Shown: positions 6,320-26,486 of the stretch, one piece after another
Layout of the letters: every line of letters begins with the position of its first letter
Numbering within the stretch: position 1 is the first letter of the stretch
IMG/VR virus record: IMGVR_UViG_3300042450_001464
Span: 1-32,814 of that record
DNA length: 32,814 nt
Strand: one strand, 5' to 3'
Source: a virus
Position numbers and translations under genes: made by a program
The notes under the pieces: generated by a model
The model's database searches: none
The model's input: the letters and a program-made list of their open reading frames with translations, nothing else
Told to the model about the DNA's origin: nothing

Positions 6320-6606
6320 TTCTTGCACCGCCCATCGGTGCACGTCTTGCCGGTGCCTTTGCAGATGGGGCATTGCACGCGGATTGAATTTCCATCGCCG
6401 ATGTACCCCGCGCCGGCACAGTTCCCACACACGCCCGGCTTCGGGGCTGGCGTCGGCGTCGGGGCGATCTCGCTCCGCAGCCGTACGGTCATGCGGGCGG
6501 TCTCGCACGCGAGGTCTGCGACGATCGCGGCGTCGTTCACGGGCGGGGAGCCGCAGCCGTCGGCGAACAGCAGGAACGTCCCGGTGACGAGGGCCGCAGT
6601 TTTCAC
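6316..6606 (-). CDS. Putative lipoprotein with DnaJ-like CxxCxGxG zinc motifs
   Basis: The GTG start at 6606 overlaps the stop of the peptidase gene as GTGA, giving 96 residues. The N-terminus MKTAALVTGTFLLFADGC is a signal peptide ending in a lipobox-like site, although Asp at -2 before Cys is unusual. A Pro-rich linker (PTPTPAPKP) follows, then two CxxCxGxG-type knuckles (CGNCAGAG and CPICKGTG), the pattern of the DnaJ cysteine-rich domain, and a last Cys-rich tail. It is likely exported and anchored outside the inner membrane, with one bound zinc. It could be an o-spanin-like component or an envelope zinc protein. The function is unknown. Confidence 0.7.
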   Translation of the reverse strand: MKTAALVTGTFLLFADGCGSPPVNDAAIVADLACETARMTVRLRSEIAPTPTPAPKPGVCGNCAGAGYIGDGNSIRVQCPICKGTGKTCTDGRCKK

Positions 6607-7523
6607 AGGATGCCCCCGGTCCAGTTGTCGATCTTGGTCGCCTTGAACCCCGAGTACCCGGCGTACGTGTAGGTGTCCTCGCCGCGGCACATGCGGTCGA
6701 TCACGTCCGCGTCAGCCCAGAAGCTCGACACGCGAACCGGCTCGGGGATGTTGTGCGGGTAGTGCTTGCCGACCGTGTTGCTCGCGCCCCACGAGTTGAT
6801 GATCAGAGCACCGGGCCGCTTGCCCCAGCGGATTCCCGCTATGCACATGGCGTGCGGCCAACTCCCACCGGGGCGGCAGAATCCCTCGTCGTCGCGGCTC
6901 ATGCTGAACCCCTGCATCGAGCAGACGACGCACGCGTACCCGTTGCCGACAGCCTTCGCCACGTCGTTGAACGAAGTGACGAGCGTCGTCTCGGAACACC
7001 GGCGTTCCTTGGCGAACGGCTCGAGCACGTCGGGCAATCCGTTGCGGCCCCAATCCCGCTCCCGCTGGGAGGAGTGCCCGTCGAACGTCGTGCCGCCGTA
7101 GTCGACGCCGTAGTGCAGGCACCCGTAGTCGCGGATCGCCTTTGCAGCGTGGAAGCCCGTGCTCCCGTCGCCGCCGTTATTTGATCGCTGCCCGCGACTC
7201 TCGACCCGGCTTAGCCCGTACAGGCTCGCCTCGATCGTGCGACCGCCCCACGACTCCGGTTCCTTGCGGTACACGATGTCGCACGCGGCGAGGATGTCCA
7301 CGCACAGACTTGCGGCCCACCCGACGCACGAACCCACGGAGCCTTGCGAGCCGCGCTGCCAACCCGGGCTGCACTTGAGCAACGCCTCGTAGAGAAAGAC
7401 TTCGGTCGTCTCGTCGGTGGCGAGATCCGGCCCCGCTTGGGCGAGCGTCGGGTGTGCCAGCGTCGCGACGAACGCGGCGGCACCGTGCGGGTCGGGATCG
7501 TATCCGAAGGCGTGGCCCTGCAT
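6603..7523 (-). CDS. Papain-like (C1 family) cysteine peptidase
   Basis: The start at 7523 is set by GGAGG six bases upstream; it gives 306 residues. The catalytic triad is complete. Cys66 lies in QGSVGSCVGWA, with the oxyanion Gln at 60. His224 lies in WPHAMCI and Asn243 in INSWGASN. The mature-type fold begins near residue 50. There is no pro-region, signal peptide or membrane segment, so the enzyme would be cytoplasmic unless released by a holin. It is flanked by genes for signal-peptide and membrane proteins, which suggests a lysis or envelope role. Processing of virion proteins or attack on host proteins are alternatives. The peptidase call is strong; the role is inferred. Confidence 0.88.
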   Translation of the reverse strand: MQGHAFGYDPDPHGAAAFVATLAHPTLAQAGPDLATDETTEVFLYEALLKCSPGWQRGSQGSVGSCVGWAASLCVDILAACDIVYRKEPESWGGRTIEASLYGLSRVESRGQRSNNGGDGSTGFHAAKAIRDYGCLHYGVDYGGTTFDGHSSQRERDWGRNGLPDVLEPFAKERRCSETTLVTSFNDVAKAVGNGYACVVCSMQGFSMSRDDEGFCRPGGSWPHAMCIAGIRWGKRPGALIINSWGASNTVGKHYPHNIPEPVRVSSFWADADVIDRMCRGEDTYTYAGYSGFKATKIDNWTGGIL

Positions 7524-7524
7524 C

Positions 7525-8001
7525 TCAGCCTCCGTTGACGCCGGCCCACGCAATCGCCCGGCACGCATCTCCGTAGGACCGGCGAAGCTCTGGCGTCACG
7601 GGCACGACCTCGAGCCCCACCGTCTCGCCCAGCACCTTCTCGACCGCTTCCCGCAAGCCGGGATACTTGCCGGGGGCATTGCCGCCCAGCCGCCGCCATG
7701 CGATGTCGAGGGCCAGCACAGTGAATCCCCGCAGGGATCTTGTGTCGGTGAACACCACCTCGGTGCCGACGGCATCGCCGGCCACGACGATCGCTGCCTT
7801 TTCCCACGTGCTCGCCCACACGGCACGATCGACAGGGGACGCGGACTTCAGGCACGCGGCGACAGTGGAAACTTTTGTTTGCATCTCAGGTGTAGGGTCA
7901 GCGACGGTGACACGGGGCAGGGACGGGACGGTGATCGACGGCACGCCGAACGCGGCCACGTAGCCAAGCACAGCCGCGATCGTGAGCCGCTGCCAACTCA
8001 T
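7525..8001 (-). CDS. Hypothetical exported or membrane-anchored protein
   Basis: The ATG at 8001 overlaps the upstream stop as ATGA, giving 158 residues. The N-terminus MSWQRLTIAAVLGYVAAFGV is a signal peptide or signal anchor. A Pro/Thr/Val linker and a helical globular domain follow (about residues 45-158), with two Cys that could form a disulfide after export. No catalytic motif is visible. The C-terminus ends one base from the start of the papain-like peptidase gene, so the two are co-expressed. Confidence 0.7.
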   Translation of the reverse strand: MSWQRLTIAAVLGYVAAFGVPSITVPSLPRVTVADPTPEMQTKVSTVAACLKSASPVDRAVWASTWEKAAIVVAGDAVGTEVVFTDTRSLRGFTVLALDIAWRRLGGNAPGKYPGLREAVEKVLGETVGLEVVPVTPELRRSYGDACRAIAWAGVNGG

Positions 8002-13221: not shown

Positions 13222-13962
13222 CTATCGGGCCGGTGTCAAACCTTGGACGGCGGCGATCCACTCGAGGTAGAGGCTCACCCGGGTGTGCCCCGTCTCTTCC
13301 CCTTCGCGGCTGTTCAGCGGCCCGCGGTCGGCCATCGTGAACGAGTTGATACCGGCGAGCTTGCCGCCGATGAACATCGGGCCGCCCGAGTCGCCCGGCG
13401 CGATCATGAACGGCAGCGGCGTCAGCCCCCGGCGGGGGCACAGCACGACCACCGCCCGCTCGTGTCGGACCACCTTGCCCGTGCCGGCTCGCAGGAGCCC
13501 GTCTGAGGGGCTTCCGCGTACATACCCTGTGCTCAGTCGCCCCGTGACGCCGTAGCCCGCCATGAGCACCACGTCGCCCACAGCCTCGCCACCCTTGGAC
13601 AGCGGCGGATAGAACGCCAGCCCGAACGACTCGCCGACGTGCAGCGCCGCGATGTCGTGCCAGCCAAGATCGTCGCCACGCCACTGGGGGTGCACGGCGA
13701 TCAGGTCGACCGCCTTGCCGCCGGCCGTGCACACGGTCAAGTCGTGGGCGACGTGGGCGGCGGTCAGTGCCCAGCGATCAGAAATCGCCACGCCAGACGC
13801 GAGGGCGGGGTTCCCGTCCATCGACCTGCCCACGATCCGCAGCGTGTACGGGGCAAACCCGTGGGCGTACTCGCGGTAGCGAGCGTCGGGAACGGCGTCA
13901 TCGGTCGTTCCTGCGAAGACCGATGACGCCGCCCAGACGATTAACACCAGAGCCCACCGCAT
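13222..13962 (-). CDS. Secreted trypsin-like serine protease
   Basis: The ATG at 13962 gives 246 residues and starts with a signal peptide (MRWALVLIVWAASSVFA, cleavage near 17-18). The S1 triad is complete: His70 in LTAAHV, Asp103 in HDIAALHV and Ser192 in PGDSGGP. The GDSGGPMF block and the later AGINSF segment are typical of the family. It would act outside the cytoplasmic membrane, or be carried in the virion after export. Secreted trypsin-like proteases are unusual in phages. It could attack envelope or competitor proteins or process a phage surface protein; these roles are inference. The signal peptide shows it is not an ordinary head-maturation protease. Confidence 0.88.
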   Translation of the reverse strand: MRWALVLIVWAASSVFAGTTDDAVPDARYREYAHGFAPYTLRIVGRSMDGNPALASGVAISDRWALTAAHVAHDLTVCTAGGKAVDLIAVHPQWRGDDLGWHDIAALHVGESFGLAFYPPLSKGGEAVGDVVLMAGYGVTGRLSTGYVRGSPSDGLLRAGTGKVVRHERAVVVLCPRRGLTPLPFMIAPGDSGGPMFIGGKLAGINSFTMADRGPLNSREGEETGHTRVSLYLEWIAAVQGLTPAR

Positions 13963-14000
13963 GTGTCCACTCTGACACGCTTGGCAAGCAGGCTTGCAGC

Positions 14001-14300
14001 CTAGCGGTAGCGAATCACCGCGTAGTAGCGGCGCGTGACCGGGGAGTAGGCAATGCCTTCCTCGAGGATCACCTTCCGACCGAAGTAGCAGCAGTTCCGG
14101 CGGGCCTGCTCGGGCGTACTGCCCATACCGATCCCCTCGGTCGTCGAGCACTGGCTGTGCACCAGCGACCCGCGGCGAGCAATGATGACGGCGTGGTCCT
14201 GGGCCGTGATCACCGAACCGCCGCGACGAACGACCACCGTGCCGTCAGCGACGGCGAACGTGGCGACCGACGCAATCAGCAAAGCAAAAACAAAACGCAT
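14001..14300 (-). CDS. Secreted hypothetical protein
   Basis: The ATG at 14300 has GGAGG seven bases upstream, giving 99 residues. A signal peptide (MRFVFALLIASVATFAVADG, cleavage after Ala near 17) is followed by a basic, beta-rich mature domain with two adjacent Cys near residues 73-74 and one earlier Cys, so a disulfide is possible outside the membrane. A Tyr/Arg-rich C-terminus (YYAVIRYR) follows. It lies next to the secreted protease gene and may be co-exported as its partner or inhibitor. That is inference from position only. Confidence 0.7.
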   Translation of the reverse strand: MRFVFALLIASVATFAVADGTVVVRRGGSVITAQDHAVIIARRGSLVHSQCSTTEGIGMGSTPEQARRNCCYFGRKVILEEGIAYSPVTRRYYAVIRYR

Positions 14301-15067: not shown

Positions 15068-16189
15068 CTAGTCCTTTGCCAAGGGCATCACGACGCCCGT
15101 GAAATCCTCGCACCGAAACACCACGGCCGACGCGGCGTCCTTCACGTGCAGGCTCACCGTCGGCTCTCCGTCCGGGGGCAAGTTCGAAAGGAAGTCCGCA
15201 ACGAATCGCGGGTCGAGATTCACCGTACACCCGTGCCCGAACTCCATGATCGGACACGTGACGCTCGACTCGCCCGCTTCCGCACTCTTGCCGTGGAGCC
15301 AGATCCCGTTCTCAGCGAACGTGAAGTCGACCCCCTTTGACGCCTCGCTCGTCACGATCGCCGCTGCCATCGTCGCCGACAGCAGTTCCGAAATCACCGC
15401 GGCCGTCGGTGCTTCCTCGAACTGAAGGATTTTATCACGCCACGCAGGGAACCTGCCCGACAGCAGCCGCGCCGTGATCACCGTGCCGTCGATCGTGGCG
15501 ACCACCTCGTTGTCGGTCGCCTCAATCTGCACCGCCCCAGAGCTTTTGCCTGCCGCCGTGAAAATCGCCTGCATAGCCTTCAGCGGGATCAGCGTCTTGG
15601 AGTCGTCAACCGCTTGGTCGATCTCCACCTCAGCGGCGCTCAGCCGCCTCCCGTCGGTGGCAACAAAAGTGACCACGCCGTCAGCGACCTCGAGCATGAC
15701 GCCACCCAACGCGAACCGGCTCGACTTGTTGTCTGTCGCGTACATGACCGACTTGGCAGCCCGAGCGAACTGGTCGGCAGGAATCCGGCAGACCGACTTG
15801 GGCGCGTCGGCCTCCCACGTCGGGAACTCATTCGCCGCCTCGGTCGGCAGCGTCCACGTCGCCCCGTCGACCGTCACAACGCACGTCGTTTCGCCCGGGG
15901 TGAGGATGACCTCCTCGCCCTTGGGGCACGCGGTCAAAATCGCCTGCAGCCGGTGATGCGGCAGCAAGATCGGGTCGCCCGTGTACGCGATCTCCGCATT
16001 GACCTGCAGCTCGAGGTCCGTCCCCGTCAGCCCGCCGTTGGCGAGCAGGACGTTGAGTAGGACCGGCTTCGGGCTCCGCGTGGAGACCGCCGCGCTCACC
16101 GCGTGGAGTGCCTTCCTAAGTGCCGCGGCGCTCAACGTGATCCCCGTGCCAGTACGCCGCCGTTTTCGTTCTGCTGTTGCCGTTGTCAT
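15068..16189 (-). CDS. dnaN: DNA polymerase III beta sliding clamp homologue
   Basis: A 373-residue protein, the usual DnaN length, with the three-domain clamp layout. A first-domain segment SPKPVLLNVLLANGGLTGTDLELQ matches the bacterial pattern for the clamp core. FALGGVMLEVADG and FVATDGRRLS mark domain 2. RLLSGRFPAWRDKI and the C-terminal VVMPLAKD match the family ends (compare bacterial VIMPM-type tails). The clamp tethers replicative polymerase to DNA. The protein would be expected to interact with host DNA polymerase III, as no polymerase gene is visible here. Viral DnaN genes are rare. The ATG has a spaced AAAGGA site inside the upstream overlapping gene. Confidence 0.93.
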   Translation of the reverse strand: MTTATAERKRRRTGTGITLSAAALRKALHAVSAAVSTRSPKPVLLNVLLANGGLTGTDLELQVNAEIAYTGDPILLPHHRLQAILTACPKGEEVILTPGETTCVVTVDGATWTLPTEAANEFPTWEADAPKSVCRIPADQFARAAKSVMYATDNKSSRFALGGVMLEVADGVVTFVATDGRRLSAAEVEIDQAVDDSKTLIPLKAMQAIFTAAGKSSGAVQIEATDNEVVATIDGTVITARLLSGRFPAWRDKILQFEEAPTAAVISELLSATMAAAIVTSEASKGVDFTFAENGIWLHGKSAEAGESSVTCPIMEFGHGCTVNLDPRFVADFLSNLPPDGEPTVSLHVKDAASAVVFRCEDFTGVVMPLAKD

Positions 16190-16298: not shown

Positions 16299-16488
16299 GA
16301 CCGGCCTCCATTCGCTCGATGACCTGGGCGAGTTTCATGCACCGCCGCATGAGCGATCGGATCGTGTCGGCGGACTGCTCGTGCAGCAGCCGCGAGTCGT
16401 CGTCCACGTGATCCATCCAGGCTTGGAGGGCGCACATGTCCGCGACCATCATGGGGGCCGGCAGTTCGTAGGGGGCGTCCTCGGTCAT
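16288..16488 (-). CDS. Small helical hypothetical protein
   Basis: The ATG at 16488 has AGGAGG and overlaps the upstream stop as ATGA, giving 66 residues (MTEDAPYELPAPMMVADMCA). It is a helical acidic protein with an Arg-rich segment (SLMRRCMKLAQVIERM) near the end and no known motif. It is co-translated with the LexA-like winged-helix gene. Confidence 0.65.
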   Translation of the reverse strand: MTEDAPYELPAPMMVADMCALQAWMDHVDDDSRLLHEQSADTIRSLMRRCMKLAQVIERMEAGHVS

Positions 16489-16721
16489 AGGGCACCTCCT
16501 GACGGGCGAATGGTTCTCGCCACCCCGGGGGTCCACGTGACCAGCCCCGCTCGGCTCAGAGCCTTCAGGTGGCCCCAGGCGGCATTCGGGCTGCGCCACT
16601 TGAAGTTCACGCAAATCTCTCGGACCGTCAGCCCGTACCCCTGCGCGGCGGTTTGGTCTCGCACGAATGCGAAGACCGCCCGCTGCGTGTCTGTGGTCGT
16701 GTGTTCAGCCGTCCCTGTCAT
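16485..16721 (-). CDS. LexA-like winged-helix DNA-binding protein without protease domain
   Basis: The ATG at 16721 with GGAGGAGG upstream gives 78 residues. The core TDTQRAVFAFVRDQ, YGLTVREICVNF and WRSPNAAWGHLKALSRAGLV matches the LexA N-terminal domain (TxRQxEVxxFI, PPTxREI, FxSPNAAxxHLKAL). The autoproteolytic LexA C-terminal domain is missing, so it cannot self-cleave. It could act as a constitutive competitor at host SOS boxes, or as a phage repressor or antirepressor. Its start lies inside the end of the initiator gene. Confidence 0.75.
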   Translation of the reverse strand: MTGTAEHTTTDTQRAVFAFVRDQTAAQGYGLTVREICVNFKWRSPNAAWGHLKALSRAGLVTWTPGVARTIRPSGGAL

Positions 16722-17349
16722 GTTCAACCTCCTCCGTGAGTGTCTCTTCCGATGCAACCTGCAGAGCATCCGCGCGGATGTCTGTGAACGATGCTTGCCC
16801 CTCCCCGGGCTTGCCACGAGAAGCGTCGGCCGGTGCCAACCCGGCCGGCAGCTTCTCGGATACCCATAGGAGTCTCTTAGGAGACTCTATGGGTATAGAG
16901 GAATAGGGGTCACACCTTGTGCCACCCTTGCGCACACCTTGTGCCACCCCCCTGGCACACTGTGTGCCACCCTTGCGCACACCTTGTGCCACCCCCCTGG
17001 CACACTGTGTGCCACCCCCCTGGCACACCTTGTGCCACCCCTCGCTCGCCACGTCGGCGAACTCATACTTCGCCCGGGTGCCCCCGGAACTGGACGCGAT
17101 GACCAGCAAAACCCGCTCGGCGACCAGCCGGTTGATGCCACGACGAACGGACGTCCTCTGTACGGCCATTACCTTGGCAGCCCCAGACGCGGACATGGTG
17201 AACGTGCAACGCCTGTAGTCGGCGAAGCAGAGGGCATAGGCGACCACCATGCGGGCATCAGTGCCCAACCGGGCCATCATGCCGCTGCGGAGCAAAGCCT
17301 CGTGCCGGCGACGCATCTCGCCAAACTCTCGTTTTGGTTTGTCGGCCAT
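16705..17349 (-). CDS. Replication-initiator-like winged-helix protein
   Basis: A 214-residue protein from ATG at 17349; a GTG at 17355 overlapping the helicase stop as GTGA is an alternative. Residues about 28-98 form a winged HTH (MVVAYALCFADYRRCTFTMS then VQRTSVRRGINRLVAERVLL). A low-complexity linker with a 15-residue tandem repeat (about 104-147) is encoded by a DNA iteron array, followed by a charged C-terminus. This order of a DNA-binding head, an origin-bearing linker and a tail is that of lambda O-type initiators. It sits just after the primase-helicase gene. It would bind the iterons and load the helicase; this is inferred. Confidence 0.7.
   Translation of the reverse strand: MADKPKREFGEMRRRHEALLRSGMMARLGTDARMVVAYALCFADYRRCTFTMSASGAAKVMAVQRTSVRRGINRLVAERVLLVIASSSGGTRAKYEFADVASEGWHKVCQGGGTQCARGVAQGVRKGGTQCARGVAQGVRKGGTRCDPYSSIPIESPKRLLWVSEKLPAGLAPADASRGKPGEGQASFTDIRADALQVASEETLTEEVEHDRDG
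16861..16895. repeat. 15-bp-stem hairpin beside the iteron array
   Basis: TACCCATA, one bulged G and GAGTCTC pair with GAGACTC and TATGGGTA across a TTAG loop. This is among the strongest local inverted repeats in the window. It lies inside the initiator gene and 15 bases from the iterons. It could be an origin structural element, such as a cruciform or a primer-start site. A terminator is unlikely, as there is no U-run and it lies within a gene. Confidence 0.75.
16911..17040. repeat. Six tandem 22-23 bp iterons, candidate replication origin
   Basis: Units start near 16911, 16933, 16956, 16978, 17001 and 17024. Each has the core CACA(CCTTG or CTGTG)TGCCACCC, in lengths 22, 23, 22, 23, 23 and a partial last unit. 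Units one plus two equal three plus four (45 bp, 15 codons), so the repeat keeps frame. Junctions with CTGG make palindromes: TGGCACAC-T-GTGTGCCA at 16953-16969 and 16998-17014, and a 7-bp-arm version at 17021-17037. Direct repeats with dyads inside an initiator gene are the hallmark of lambdoid origins. I see no long AT-rich unwinding region in the immediate flank. Confidence 0.75.
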
Positions 17350-17351
17350 GC

Positions 17352-19091
17352 TCACGGGCTCCAGTTCGCGAACTCGGCAATCGGGCCGACGGCCGTGTCC
17401 TCGAACGCCTGATACTTGCCGTGGAACCACAACTCCACGTCGCGCGGCTCGCCCTGGCGAAGTTTCTTGCAGTGCCAGACGACCTTGATCTCGCCGTCAG
17501 CCCCGACTTCCTCAGTCTTTTGGCCGTACAGCAGGTTGTCCGAGTCGTAGTCGATCTGGTTTGACAGCTTTCCGATGTTGCCGATTTCTGTGTTGTGATC
17601 CACGCCTTTTGCGACGTTCGTCACCATGACCAGAGCAATATTCCGGGTCGTAATCAGAGCACCGAGCCGCTTTAAAACCTCGATGATCTTGTTCGTCGGC
17701 TCCTCAATGTGCCGGTCGGCGTCGCACTTCTGCAGGTAGTCCACGACCAGCAGTTGCACGTTGTCTTTAATGACCGCCCGTTCAATCCGGTCAATCTTGA
17801 GCGGCTGGTCAATAATCTTGAGCCGGTTCCCGACTTTGTTGGCGAGGCTTGCGGCAATGCTTCGCGACTCGCCGTCCTTGCGGATGATGTCTTGGAGCGT
17901 GAGCCCAGAGGACTGACCGCCCCAGTTCGTGATCGCCCGGGCCGCAAGCGCCGTGCGTGTCATCTCCCCCATGCACCATGCAGCAACGAGGTTTTCGTCT
18001 TGCATCAAACACTGCAGGACGAGTTGCAACGCTAGGGCCGACTTGCCCACGCCGGGGGCCGCGGCCAGTGCGGTCATTTGCCCAAGCGGGATGCCGCCAT
18101 CAAAGAGCTTGTCGATCGACTCGATGCCCGTCTTGATCGTGGGCGTCTTTTCCTGCTTCGCCCATTCGTCGATTGCGTCGGTCAGCGTCGGCGTGGGCGT
18201 CTGAACCTCGGCGTCTTGCACGGGCTGGGCCTCTTCCGCCGGCCCCAGCACCGGGAGCCGCTGCCGCTTCCACGCGTTCGCGATCTGCCGCGGGCAATCA
18301 TCAAGGTCGTCCTGCCGCAGCCCGACCGATCGCATTCGCTGCATGATCAGCGTGGTTGCTTCCGACACGGCCCAGCCTCGAGCCGCTAGGTCGCAGGCCA
18401 CCGTGAACATCGTCTGCCGCCGGCCGGCGGTCATGACGTAGCCTTCCTCGCAAAACCTCCTGGTCAACTCGCTCATGCTCTTGGGTTTCACGACAATCGA
18501 CTGCGCCGCCTGCCGGCCAAAACGCGACATCGGGTAGACACGTGTCGGGTCGCAATCCTTGAGCACCGCCGTCGGCCGCTGCTCGTGTTTCCAGTTCACG
18601 AACCCGGGCAGCCGCATGATCCGCGGCCAATCGCAGACGCTTTGGTCAGAGCCCAGAGCCCCGGCAATCGCCTTCATTCGTTCGTGCCATGCGTCGGCGT
18701 CCGTCACCGGCTGGTCGAGCCGCCACCACGCGTGCACACCGCCGCCGCTTTCGAGGATCGCGGTAGGCCAGGGCAACCCCGCCGCCTTGATCCTGGCGTA
18801 CGCGTCCTCAAGCACGATGCCGCCGTCGAAGTCCGCGAACAAGCAGCGGGCCAGCTTCACGCCCTCGGCCTGACTAGCCCCCTTTTCTTTCCGTGGGTTC
18901 GCTCCAAAGTAGGCGTGGACACGGAGTTGCTCGTCGGCGTTGACCCGATGCAGCCAATCCACGATGTCGGGGATCTCGGAGAGCGGCGACCATCTACGGC
19001 CGGCAGACGGCGGCAGCGGGCGAAACTCGATGATGTCTTCGGGCTCAAAGATGGCCCCGAGAAAATCAATGCACTGCGATAGCGTGTCCAC
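17352..19091 (-). CDS. Primase-helicase: AEP-like primase fused to DnaB-type helicase
   Basis: A 579-residue protein from GTG at 19091. Residues about 80-170 carry an archaeo-eukaryotic-primase/prim-pol-like catalytic core: DxD in FADFDGG (87-89), the SGGGVHAWW His motif (His120), and CDWPRIMRLPGFVNWK (153-168). A linker follows (to about 310). The RecA-like helicase domain has Walker A APGVGKS (345-351), the ENLVAAWCMGEM strand and Walker B VVDYLQ (449-454). It would prime and unwind phage DNA at the fork. Such fusions supply replication independence from host DnaG and DnaB. Confidence 0.88.
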   Translation of the reverse strand: MDTLSQCIDFLGAIFEPEDIIEFRPLPPSAGRRWSPLSEIPDIVDWLHRVNADEQLRVHAYFGANPRKEKGASQAEGVKLARCLFADFDGGIVLEDAYARIKAAGLPWPTAILESGGGVHAWWRLDQPVTDADAWHERMKAIAGALGSDQSVCDWPRIMRLPGFVNWKHEQRPTAVLKDCDPTRVYPMSRFGRQAAQSIVVKPKSMSELTRRFCEEGYVMTAGRRQTMFTVACDLAARGWAVSEATTLIMQRMRSVGLRQDDLDDCPRQIANAWKRQRLPVLGPAEEAQPVQDAEVQTPTPTLTDAIDEWAKQEKTPTIKTGIESIDKLFDGGIPLGQMTALAAAPGVGKSALALQLVLQCLMQDENLVAAWCMGEMTRTALAARAITNWGGQSSGLTLQDIIRKDGESRSIAASLANKVGNRLKIIDQPLKIDRIERAVIKDNVQLLVVDYLQKCDADRHIEEPTNKIIEVLKRLGALITTRNIALVMVTNVAKGVDHNTEIGNIGKLSNQIDYDSDNLLYGQKTEEVGADGEIKVVWHCKKLRQGEPRDVELWFHGKYQAFEDTAVGPIAEFANWSP

Positions 19092-19646: not shown

Positions 19647-20435
19647 TTAAACCGCAGCCTTTTTCTTTCGCGACCCTCTGTAGTAAAGCGAGGAAATTGC
19701 GTCGCACGTCGCAGCCGCTCGGCCGTAGTGCCCAGACGACCTTTCTCTCTCCAGCTTGAACGTGGCGTCCGCAGCGCGGATTACTGAAGAAACAGCCTTC
19801 ACTCGCAGCTTTTCCACAAGCTTCTTGCGGTCAAAATCCTGATTCTTCTTAATGAAGATCGACATGCCTTCAATCATCTCGCCTTGCAGTGCGCCATCCT
19901 CGCCAGGCCACACCTCGCAGAGAATCCCAAGGCAATCCAGCAGGCCGTCAGATCCGATTCGCTGATACGACCGCTCCAGCGCTTTTACGGCCTTGATATA
20001 TGGCCACCCACATCCGCCGTCTTCTCGCACTCGCACCTTCAGCCCAGCACGGCCGACGACGCCTACGATGTCGCACGTTTGCGCATCGCCCTCAGTTAGC
20101 TGAGCATTGAACAGCGCTCCCGCCGAAACGTTAGTGCGCTCCTTATTCTTGAGACGAAACACACGGGCCTCGTGCTCCTGTCCGTCCGACTGAAACACGT
20201 CGCACGGAACCATGCCTATGCCCAGCTTTCTGGCCGCCGTAAGCCTCTGCATTCCGTCAACAACCCAGTAAGTTCCGTCTCGCCGCTCTCCGACCGTCAG
20301 CGAACCAAATGCGTCTTGGTCTAGGTTGCTTGCGATTCTGTTCACTCGGGCCGAAATAATCGTCCTTTGGTAAGCGTCAGAAATGTTCAGTTCGTCTACG
20401 CCAATTTTCCTATTCTCAGTCTTTAGCAGCCGCAT
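19647..20435 (-). CDS. ParB/sulfiredoxin-fold nuclease-like protein
   Basis: A 262-residue protein with AAAGGAGG before its ATG. The N-domain has a ParB-like core: IGVDELNISDAYQR, then YWVVDGMQRLTAARKLGI (57-72) with the DGxxR signature of ParB and DndB-related phosphohydrolase folds. The rest is helical and Lys-rich to the end (GSRKKKAAV). No HTH like that of true partition ParB is evident. It may be a DNA-binding or nuclease accessory of replication, or a phage copy-control factor. It is followed by HNH and primase-helicase. Confidence 0.75.
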   Translation of the reverse strand: MRLLKTENRKIGVDELNISDAYQRTIISARVNRIASNLDQDAFGSLTVGERRDGTYWVVDGMQRLTAARKLGIGMVPCDVFQSDGQEHEARVFRLKNKERTNVSAGALFNAQLTEGDAQTCDIVGVVGRAGLKVRVREDGGCGWPYIKAVKALERSYQRIGSDGLLDCLGILCEVWPGEDGALQGEMIEGMSIFIKKNQDFDRKKLVEKLRVKAVSSVIRAADATFKLERERSSGHYGRAAATCDAISSLYYRGSRKKKAAV

Positions 20436-20792: not shown

Positions 20793-21617
20793 TTAGACGA
20801 GGGGCGGGGTTCGCGGCGTCTTCGTCCGCAGTTGGGAAAAATCGCAATAGGCTTGGTCGAAAAGTGCAGGCGATCGGTGGCCCAGGTGGAGCCGGCCGCT
20901 GCCCGCTTTGACCATCTCGCAGTGTGTCGCCCCGCTGCGCCTCAGCCACTTCGAACTGCCGCCGATCCCGAGGCTGTCGAGCAGGTCGCGCATGTGCCGC
21001 TGGGCCTGCCGTCGGCGTGTCACCCAGCCAAGAATGCTGCCGTCACGGGAGACCTTGAGCATCGCGTCGATCGAGTCGAGGCAGGCCGGGGTGAGCGTCC
21101 GCGTGATCGCGTCACCCGTCTTGCTTTGCGTCCACGCCAGCGTGTCGCTGTCGAGGTGGTCGCGACCGAACGACATGATGTCGCCGAACCGGGCACCGGT
21201 CTCGTAGCCCACGAGAATCCAGCACAGCAGGAACTCGCCCAGGTCGGCCCCGCTGCGGAGCTTGGTGCCTCGCTTCGCCTGTGCCGCCTCGATCGCCAGC
21301 CGCAGTTGCGGGACCGTCCACGCCTTCGTCGGGGCTTTGCGGGCCTTCACGCGGTTGATGCCACGCGGAGCCGCATCAAGCAGGCTGCGGTCGTACCCCC
21401 AGTTCCAGAGCGTGAGCAGGATGCCACGCTCAGCACGGGTCGTGATGCCGCTGACCTCGACGGATCGTTTCGCGAGGAACTGGTTAAGCAGTTCCACCGA
21501 AATCCCGCCGGCACGGTTGGCGATTCGCAGCACATTCTTCCCGTAGTTGGCCGTAACCGACCGCTCGGCAAGGTATTGCGGGGCAATTTCGGAGAATTTT
21601 TTCAGTTGTGGCTTCAT
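20793..21617 (-). CDS. Tyrosine recombinase (replication-cluster copy)
   Basis: A 274-residue integrase-family protein, AAAGGA before its ATG. An N-terminal SAM-like core-binding domain (about 1-95) precedes the catalytic domain: Arg143 in GYETGARFGDI, Lys166 in QSKTGDA, Arg226 in KWLRRSGA, His247 in LGHRS and Tyr257 in FDQAYCDF. The complete set suggests it is active. It sits in the middle of the replication genes rather than beside an attachment region, so it may resolve genome multimers (Xer-like) instead of integrating. It is distinct from the integrase at 25560. Confidence 0.82.
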   Translation of the reverse strand: MKPQLKKFSEIAPQYLAERSVTANYGKNVLRIANRAGGISVELLNQFLAKRSVEVSGITTRAERGILLTLWNWGYDRSLLDAAPRGINRVKARKAPTKAWTVPQLRLAIEAAQAKRGTKLRSGADLGEFLLCWILVGYETGARFGDIMSFGRDHLDSDTLAWTQSKTGDAITRTLTPACLDSIDAMLKVSRDGSILGWVTRRRQAQRHMRDLLDSLGIGGSSKWLRRSGATHCEMVKAGSGRLHLGHRSPALFDQAYCDFSQLRTKTPRTPPLV

Positions 21618-25559: not shown

Positions 25560-26486
25560 ATGATCACGCTACGAGACCTTTTGAGAGACAGAATTGCACC
25601 GTTGCGGAACCTCAGCGACAGGAGCGTTGTGATGTACGAATCGACGCTCGACCGCCTGCGGGATCACCTGGGCCACGAGGCGACGGTCGACGACCTCGAC
25701 GATCTGACGATCGCCAAGTTCTTGAGATGGCGGGCCACGACGGTTCACGACCCGCGACGGGGGCTGATCTCGCCGGCCAGCCTCGCCAAAGATTCTGCCC
25801 ACCTGAGAACATTGTGGAATTGGTGCGCCAAGAAACGGATGAAGAGGGCCGACGGTGAACTGATCGAGTTCCCCGATTACGCCCGCCCTCGAGTCCCCAA
25901 GCCGCGGCCCAAGGCGTTCACCATCGAGCAGTTGTCGTCGCTGGTTCGGGCGGCCAGACACCGCAAGGGGCATATCTGCGGCAAGCCGGCGGCTTGGTAT
26001 TGGACGACCAAACTGATGGCGCTCTGGCAGACGGGCGAGAGGATCGGTGCGATCCTGCAGATCCGGTGGGGTGAGGTCGATTTTGAGCGACACACGCTCA
26101 CGTTCCTCGCCGCCACGCGCAAGGGCCACCGGGAGACCATTACACGGGCGATCACGCCCGATCTGGCTCGTATGTTAGCCGCTCAGAAGGGGGCCGCAGG
26201 CGAGCTTGTATGGGCTTGGAATAAGGACAGGGAGCCGTTGTCGGTCTACCCGTCTCTGCGGGTGCTCTGCCGCGTAGCCCAGGTGCCGTATCTGCCCTTC
26301 CATTCGATTAGAAAAAGCACCGCAAGTTATCTGAAGAGGGCCGGCCAATCGGCAAAGGACACGCTGGGTCACAGCTCGGAGGAAATGGGCGACCACTATT
26401 ACGACGAGGACATAACCGGGCGAAAGTCGGCGCTGGACTTTCTCCCGCCCCTCGACCTCGACGGGCCAGACAAACCCGCAACCTGA
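25560..26486 (+). CDS. Phage integrase, tyrosine recombinase
   Basis: A 308-residue protein with AAGGGA seven bases upstream. An N-terminal core-binding domain (about 15-105) precedes the catalytic domain: Arg161 in QTGERIGAI, Lys188 in ATRKGHR, HxxR in FHSIRKST (His248 and Arg251), His271 in LGHSS, and Tyr280 or Tyr281 in GDHYYDE. This is the only plus-strand gene, next to an excisionase-like gene, which points to a temperate or formerly temperate phage. It should integrate the phage genome into a host attachment site. It ends just before a strong shared hairpin. Confidence 0.85.
   Translation: MITLRDLLRDRIAPLRNLSDRSVVMYESTLDRLRDHLGHEATVDDLDDLTIAKFLRWRATTVHDPRRGLISPASLAKDSAHLRTLWNWCAKKRMKRADGELIEFPDYARPRVPKPRPKAFTIEQLSSLVRAARHRKGHICGKPAAWYWTTKLMALWQTGERIGAILQIRWGEVDFERHTLTFLAATRKGHRETITRAITPDLARMLAAQKGAAGELVWAWNKDREPLSVYPSLRVLCRVAQVPYLPFHSIRKSTASYLKRAGQSAKDTLGHSSEEMGDHYYDEDITGRKSALDFLPPLDLDGPDKPAT

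Follow-up and report, generated by a model that had tools for sequence, protein, structure and literature searches.

Does a tandem array of palindromic repeats lying inside a phage gene mark the origin at which that phage replicates, and is the product of the same gene the protein that recognizes it? The locus that raises this question belongs to an uncultivated virus, IMG/VR record IMGVR_UViG_3300042450_001464, whose full 32,814 bp were analyzed and are referred to here as the window. A sequence-only reading had described six palindromic iterons of 22-23 bp and a strong hairpin in a winged-helix gene placed directly after a primase-helicase gene, and had likened this layout to that of lambda O and its origin, with a different sequence and a different partner. 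Altogether, our comparative results support a model whereby this locus is, with high likelihood, a lambda-like replication origin inside the gene of its own initiator. The model builds on co-variation between protein and iterons, conservation of the iterons at the DNA level, compensatory change in the hairpin, the presence of a single copy per genome, and the place of the array in a replication module.

Results

The locus and its gene neighborhood

The position described earlier was confirmed, in that the winged-helix gene directly follows the primase-helicase gene, both on the minus strand:

17352-19091, minus strand: fused primase-helicase gene, 579 aa, with an AEP/RepB-type primase N-terminus and a DnaB-type RecA-fold helicase C-terminus
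16705-17349, minus strand: winged-helix putative initiator gene, 214 aa, ATG at 17349, enclosing the whole cis element
15068-16189, minus strand: sliding clamp gene, DnaN-like (phrog_947, E 7e-55), close downstream of the winged-helix gene
19647-20435: ParB-like gene

The primase-helicase matches both RepB_primase (E 1.6e-7) and DnaB_C (E 1.1e-19) of Pfam and brings together on one protein the RepB-family AEP primase and the RecA-type helicase of RSF1010-type systems. Across ten aligned relatives, its residues A86-D87-F88-D89, H120 and D154-W-P-R and its Walker A residues G347..G349-K350-S351 are invariant. Around the winged-helix gene, a replication/recombination module comprises the genes for the AEP-helicase, the sliding clamp, a Prim-Pol, a Sak4-like protein, RusA and an exonuclease. 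A LexA-like DNA-binding gene (16485-16817) overlaps the 3' end of the winged-helix gene.

This neighborhood bears on two other functions that an array of this kind might have. With a ParB-like gene nearby, and with winged-helix centromere-binding proteins in existence (4rs8 and 5k5q are among the fold matches of the protein), the array might be a partition centromere by which the protein segregates a low-copy plasmid-prophage. We find this very improbable, as no neighboring ParA or TubZ gene was identified, the tight neighbor of the array gene is the primase-helicase, and the integrase genes of the window suggest integration over plasmid prophages. Some small terminases also have winged helices, and pac sites sometimes sit inside the small terminase gene, making it conceivable that the array is a packaging start (pac/cos) recognized by a winged-helix small terminase. 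This explanation is hardly credible, given that matches to the terminase large subunit in G002, G006 and G010 are ~30 kb away from the array, which keeps its place next to the helicase.

The iteron array and the encoded protein

The cis element consists of three features:

16910-17041, no strand assigned: iteron array, six 19-nt palindromic copies with a CAC-N5-GTG core, spacing 22/23 bp
16860-16896, minus strand: hairpin A, inverted repeat of the AT-rich stretch adjoining the array; candidate unwinding and/or priming site
16818-16857, minus strand: hairpin B, GC-rich inverted repeat, centered ~42 nt beyond hairpin A

The six iterons reported before are present, with copies starting at 16910, 16932, 16955, 16977, 17000 and 17023 (spacing 22, 23, 22, 23 and 23 bp). 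They are 84-100% identical, and each carries the dyad CAC-N5-GTG, the palindrome being extended by the flanks in most copies. The repeat scores 88 of 110 matches, a count that does not exceed 67 in any of 200 synonymous shuffles. No other array of this type is present in the 32.8-kb record. A DNA pattern search with the window iteron against viral contigs returned 18 scattered single matches and no arrays. Because neither 22 nor 23 bp is divisible by three, adjacent units are in different reading frames. The earlier statement that the repeats hold the frame is therefore accurate only for every second unit, i.e., for 45-bp pairs, which encode the 15-aa repeat GGTQCARGVAQGVRK twice in tandem.

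The first 100 residues of the protein adopt a predicted winged-helix fold (AlphaFold2 model of the first 110 aa, pLDDT 82). The array is inside the gene, as had been noted, at the start of a C-terminal tail without a recognizable domain and not in a linker between known domains. The locus thus has the arrangement typical of lambda O, with tandem palindromic iterons in coding sequence beyond the DNA-binding domain of a putative initiator. The window protein has no significant Pfam or PHROG match. Among its relatives, L026 matches phrog_678 ("replication initiation O-like", 1.3e-8) and phrog_270 (7e-8), and L018 matches phrog_270 (3e-5), while Pfam searches with the winged-helix proteins returned only generic HTH families and weak plasmid-initiator matches. 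A structure search with the model gave no PDB match with E <0.001 and did not single out any one initiator family; the initiator entries 4pt7, 4pta and 1hkq, at Z ~7, are tied with many regulators.

Conservation of the array as DNA

No relative of the window protein was retrieved with winged-helix queries alone, and the alignment of these proteins is too divergent to serve as a search query. Relatives were gathered by helicase similarity and consequently represent one lineage, with helicase identities to the window of about 70-76%. Forty-six viral loci were matched; after removal of duplicates and truncated ends, 28 distinct relatives carry the downstream gene, giving 29 loci with the window. 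All relatives are uncultivated and most are incomplete contigs. In agreement with the proposed layout, all 28 have the same architecture after the primase-helicase, i.e., a winged helix, a 22/23-bp array in the gene and an AT-rich hairpin, and the lambda-like order of iterons, AT-rich stretch and inverted repeat is conserved. The iterons are inside the gene in 29 of 29 loci, in contrast to the RSF1010 type, in which they lie outside the initiator gene repC. More distant AEP homologues, one viral (L041) and four from Planctomycetota/Phycisphaerae MAGs (L068-L071), have other partners and no adjoining array.

A decisive comparison, according to the sequence-only reading, was whether silent changes destroy the DNA repeats in relatives. 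They do not: in each of the 29 loci the 22/23-bp repeat is above all 200 synonymous shuffles. The motif CAC-N5-GTG occurs four to seven times in 24 loci (six or seven times in all but one) compared to about once in shuffles, mostly spaced by 22/23 bp and distributed over two or three reading frames. The remaining five loci form one clade and have a changed core with GGnAC/GTTCC-like arms. Eight relative records were assembled from pieces. Seven of them have no large CAC-N5-GTG cluster other than the array; the eighth, G006 of the changed-core clade, lacks a cluster of this kind, yet its array ranks first among its 22/23-bp repeats. What looked like another array in G011 (L096, ~14760) was rejected as poly-C. 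Between close pairs, differences at codon positions 1/2/3 number 39/24/179 in 900 codons of the DNA-binding domain and 16/11/22 in 540 codons of the array, i.e., third-position divergence is ~fivefold lower across the array and the codon-position bias is largely gone. Gene conversion among units could contribute to this low divergence.

Judged by the synonymous shuffles, the multiple reading frames and the codon-position divergence, the iterons are conserved as DNA and not as peptide. These results contradict the idea that selection acts on the 15-residue repeat and that the DNA repeat is a by-product of a recent duplication. The in-frame 45-bp double unit of the window, with its perfect tandem peptide repeat, agrees with this idea, the likelihood of which we nevertheless consider close to negligible: units lie in different frames, the encoded peptides are quite different among relatives, and the repeat, which largely lacks codon-position bias, is lost in synonymous shuffles.

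Compensatory change in the adjoining hairpin

The strong hairpin noted earlier corresponds to hairpin A, which spans 37 nt with 16 pairs and one bulge; the 47-nt stretch containing it has a folding energy of -14.3 kcal/mol compared to -4.0 kcal/mol in shuffles (z -6.2). Folding of the 16790-17050 stretch gave a z of -8.5. Hairpin B had gone without mention; nearly all relatives have a GC-rich inverted repeat at a comparable distance beyond hairpin A.

In 20 aligned relatives, counted without the window because MAFFT misplaced it in the hairpin alignments, 12 of 14 core pairs of hairpin A are altered on both sides, 95% of cells are paired, and the covariation score is 0.555 (controls, 0.19 shuffled and ≤0.17 slid). 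The stem exceeds synonymous shuffles in 22 of 22 sequences tested, in the window weakly (p 0.04) because the test disallowed its bulge. In each of the eight pieced-together relative records, hairpin A scores highest of all simple hairpins. GC content around it ranges from 0.33 to 0.52 and is lower than the synonymous expectation in most relatives; the window value, 0.49 against an expected 0.53, is not significantly lower (p 0.21). Mismatches in hairpin A comprise nine G-T and no A-C (28 and 19 in shuffles), mildly favoring the coding strand as the strand that would fold; for hairpin B, four G-T and two A-C mismatches do not distinguish the strands.

Two further observations concern the stem. 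In most relatives, hairpin A contains a CAGT/CAAG motif repeated at 10-12-bp intervals in different reading frames; its window counterpart is CC (16855-16905), with a spacing as if helically phased. At columns 22/43 of hairpin A alignment A4, 7 of 20 relatives have a G-G mismatch (CAGTGG...CCAGTG) where the others have a T-A pair, perhaps kept because the phased CAGT motif overrides pairing.

Co-variation of the protein with its iterons

The strongest support for recognition of these sites by the winged-helix protein comes from one codon:

17152-17154, minus strand: Thr66 codon, second residue of the predicted recognition helix (residues 65-77)

Fifteen representative loci were classed from the DNA alone by the base beside CAC, and every protein column was scanned. 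Residue 66 (window numbering) alone separates the classes, with a normalized mutual information of 1.00 (next column, 0.48), for a pattern that was spotted by eye before the scan and a class threshold of our own choice. With Asn66, the base beside CAC is A or T in 122 of 126 half-sites (A86 T36 G3 C1); with Thr66, it is G or A in 177 of 178 (G132 A45 T1); and with Met66, it is C in 8 of 8. On the tree of the helicase, which is encoded by a separate gene, residue 66 needs five changes, including several independent switches: the window (Thr) and L004 (Met) lie within the Asn clade (support 100/99), while L014 and L032 (Asn) lie within a Thr-dominated clade. From these comparisons, the winged-helix protein and the iterons have co-evolved, and the protein very probably binds the in-gene array.

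Such binding would also fit an array of operators, with the protein being a repressor or regulator that binds sites in its own gene and controls the operon without any origin function, and the nearest solved folds are indeed mostly transcription regulators. Six to seven sites with helical spacing, placed past the DNA-binding domain in the 3' half of the gene and not at a promoter, would, however, be unusual for operators. Operators would also leave the conserved AT-rich hairpin beside the array unexplained, and the best matches of some relatives are replication initiation profiles and not repressor families. Thus, we consider an operator array unlikely.

The minimum of GC skew that had been anticipated at the site was not observed: in nine records, cumulative GC skew runs one way through the site without a minimum or turn. 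Because skew seems to follow gene strand in these genomes, it neither locates nor excludes an origin. The in-gene origin first proposed from the window is backed by DNA conservation, co-variation, O-like matches and replication neighbors, and not by a turn in skew.

Discussion

In our model of the lambda-like origin, the winged-helix protein would bind the 6-7 iterons as dimers and wrap the DNA, after which the AT-rich stretch beside the iterons would open. The AEP-DnaB fusion encoded by the upstream gene would be loaded at the opened stretch, and its AEP primase would start primers at or beside the exposed hairpin(s). On this view, the amino acid sequence specified by the array and hairpins would largely be a by-product of the DNA element. 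We further speculate that the origin is a self-contained hybrid in which lambda-type iterons and a hairpin priming site of the RSF1010 type share ~230 bp of coding DNA and serve a single fused AEP-DnaB with no separate loader. In the same scenario, the initiator would shift its iteron specificity via one recognition-helix residue and the in-gene sites would follow, leaving related phages with mutually distinct origins. To this scenario as a whole we give slightly less than an even chance.

An iteron origin inside a gene is of a known kind; new here are the partner protein, the covarying hairpin and the inferred specificity code. In lambda and Stx phages, the iterons are imperfect inverted repeats of ~19 bp each, placed midway through the initiator gene after the part that encodes the DNA-binding domain, with an AT-rich tract following them; Stx phages have six, and extra iterons lengthen the protein (PMC7466680). 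The locus described here similarly has palindromic iterons in the initiator gene past the DNA-binding domain with an AT-rich tract next to them, but its winged-helix family is only remotely related to lambda O, the tail after the iterons is short and without a known helicase-loader-binding domain, and, where lambda works with its P protein and the DnaB and DnaG of the host, the partner here is a fused AEP primase/DnaB-type helicase. Lambda also has an inverted repeat beyond the AT-rich tract; hairpin A differs in being conserved by compensatory change.

RSF1010 (IncQ) has RepC iterons, the RepA helicase, the RepB' primase and ssi hairpins (PMC4538821, PMC4234260). The likenesses are an iteron-binding initiator (here putative), a hexameric RecA-type helicase, a RepB-family AEP primase and hairpins near the iterons, which by analogy are candidate primase start sites in our locus; the differences are that primase and helicase are fused here and that the origin is inside the initiator gene. 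In pRN1, a 100-nt stem-loop origin between genes beside the AEP-helicase gene is needed for replication (PMC4234260). Both systems have a stem-loop of conserved structure and variable sequence shortly after an AEP-helicase gene, whereas pRN1 has an SF3 helicase and no iterons and our locus has a DnaB-like helicase and iterons, all in coding sequence. Finally, in the excerpts of two other reports available to us, the P1 RepL origin oriL is postulated to lie inside the initiator gene, with synonymous changes in an AT-rich stretch impairing replication (PMC9948254), and a winged-helix dimer of RepA_N initiators binds semi-palindromic iterons (PMC7145576). These initiators belong to different families, and neither a fused AEP-DnaB partner nor a conserved hairpin is reported in those excerpts.

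Our findings provide a clear candidate origin for an uncultivated phage lineage, the hosts of which are probably Planctomycetota, a guess made solely from L068, the Planctomycetota MAG sequence that is the closest cellular relative of the primase (58% over ~306 residues). They also suggest a readable specificity rule, in which the base beside CAC is A/T with Asn, G/A with Thr and C with Met at a single helix position, for an initiator family that carries its DNA sites along in the gene encoding it. Should the fused AEP primase start at the hairpin, the locus would join two textbook designs, the lambda ori and the RSF1010 oriV. The putative replicon, made up of the primase-helicase and initiator genes, would be ~2.4 kb, which is small enough for a test as a plasmid.

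As to the wider context of these genes, L041, L068, L069, L070 and L071 join the same AEP primase N-terminus to different ATPase or helicase domains, a pattern of domain shuffling around one primase. The 32.8-kb contig carries two different tyrosine-integrase-like genes (20793-21617, minus strand; 25560-26486, plus strand). Among its structural or accessory genes are a protease-like gene (13222-14151, minus strand; phrog_9683, E 2e-5) and a gene (6603-7568, minus strand) that by eye resembles a papain-type peptidase.
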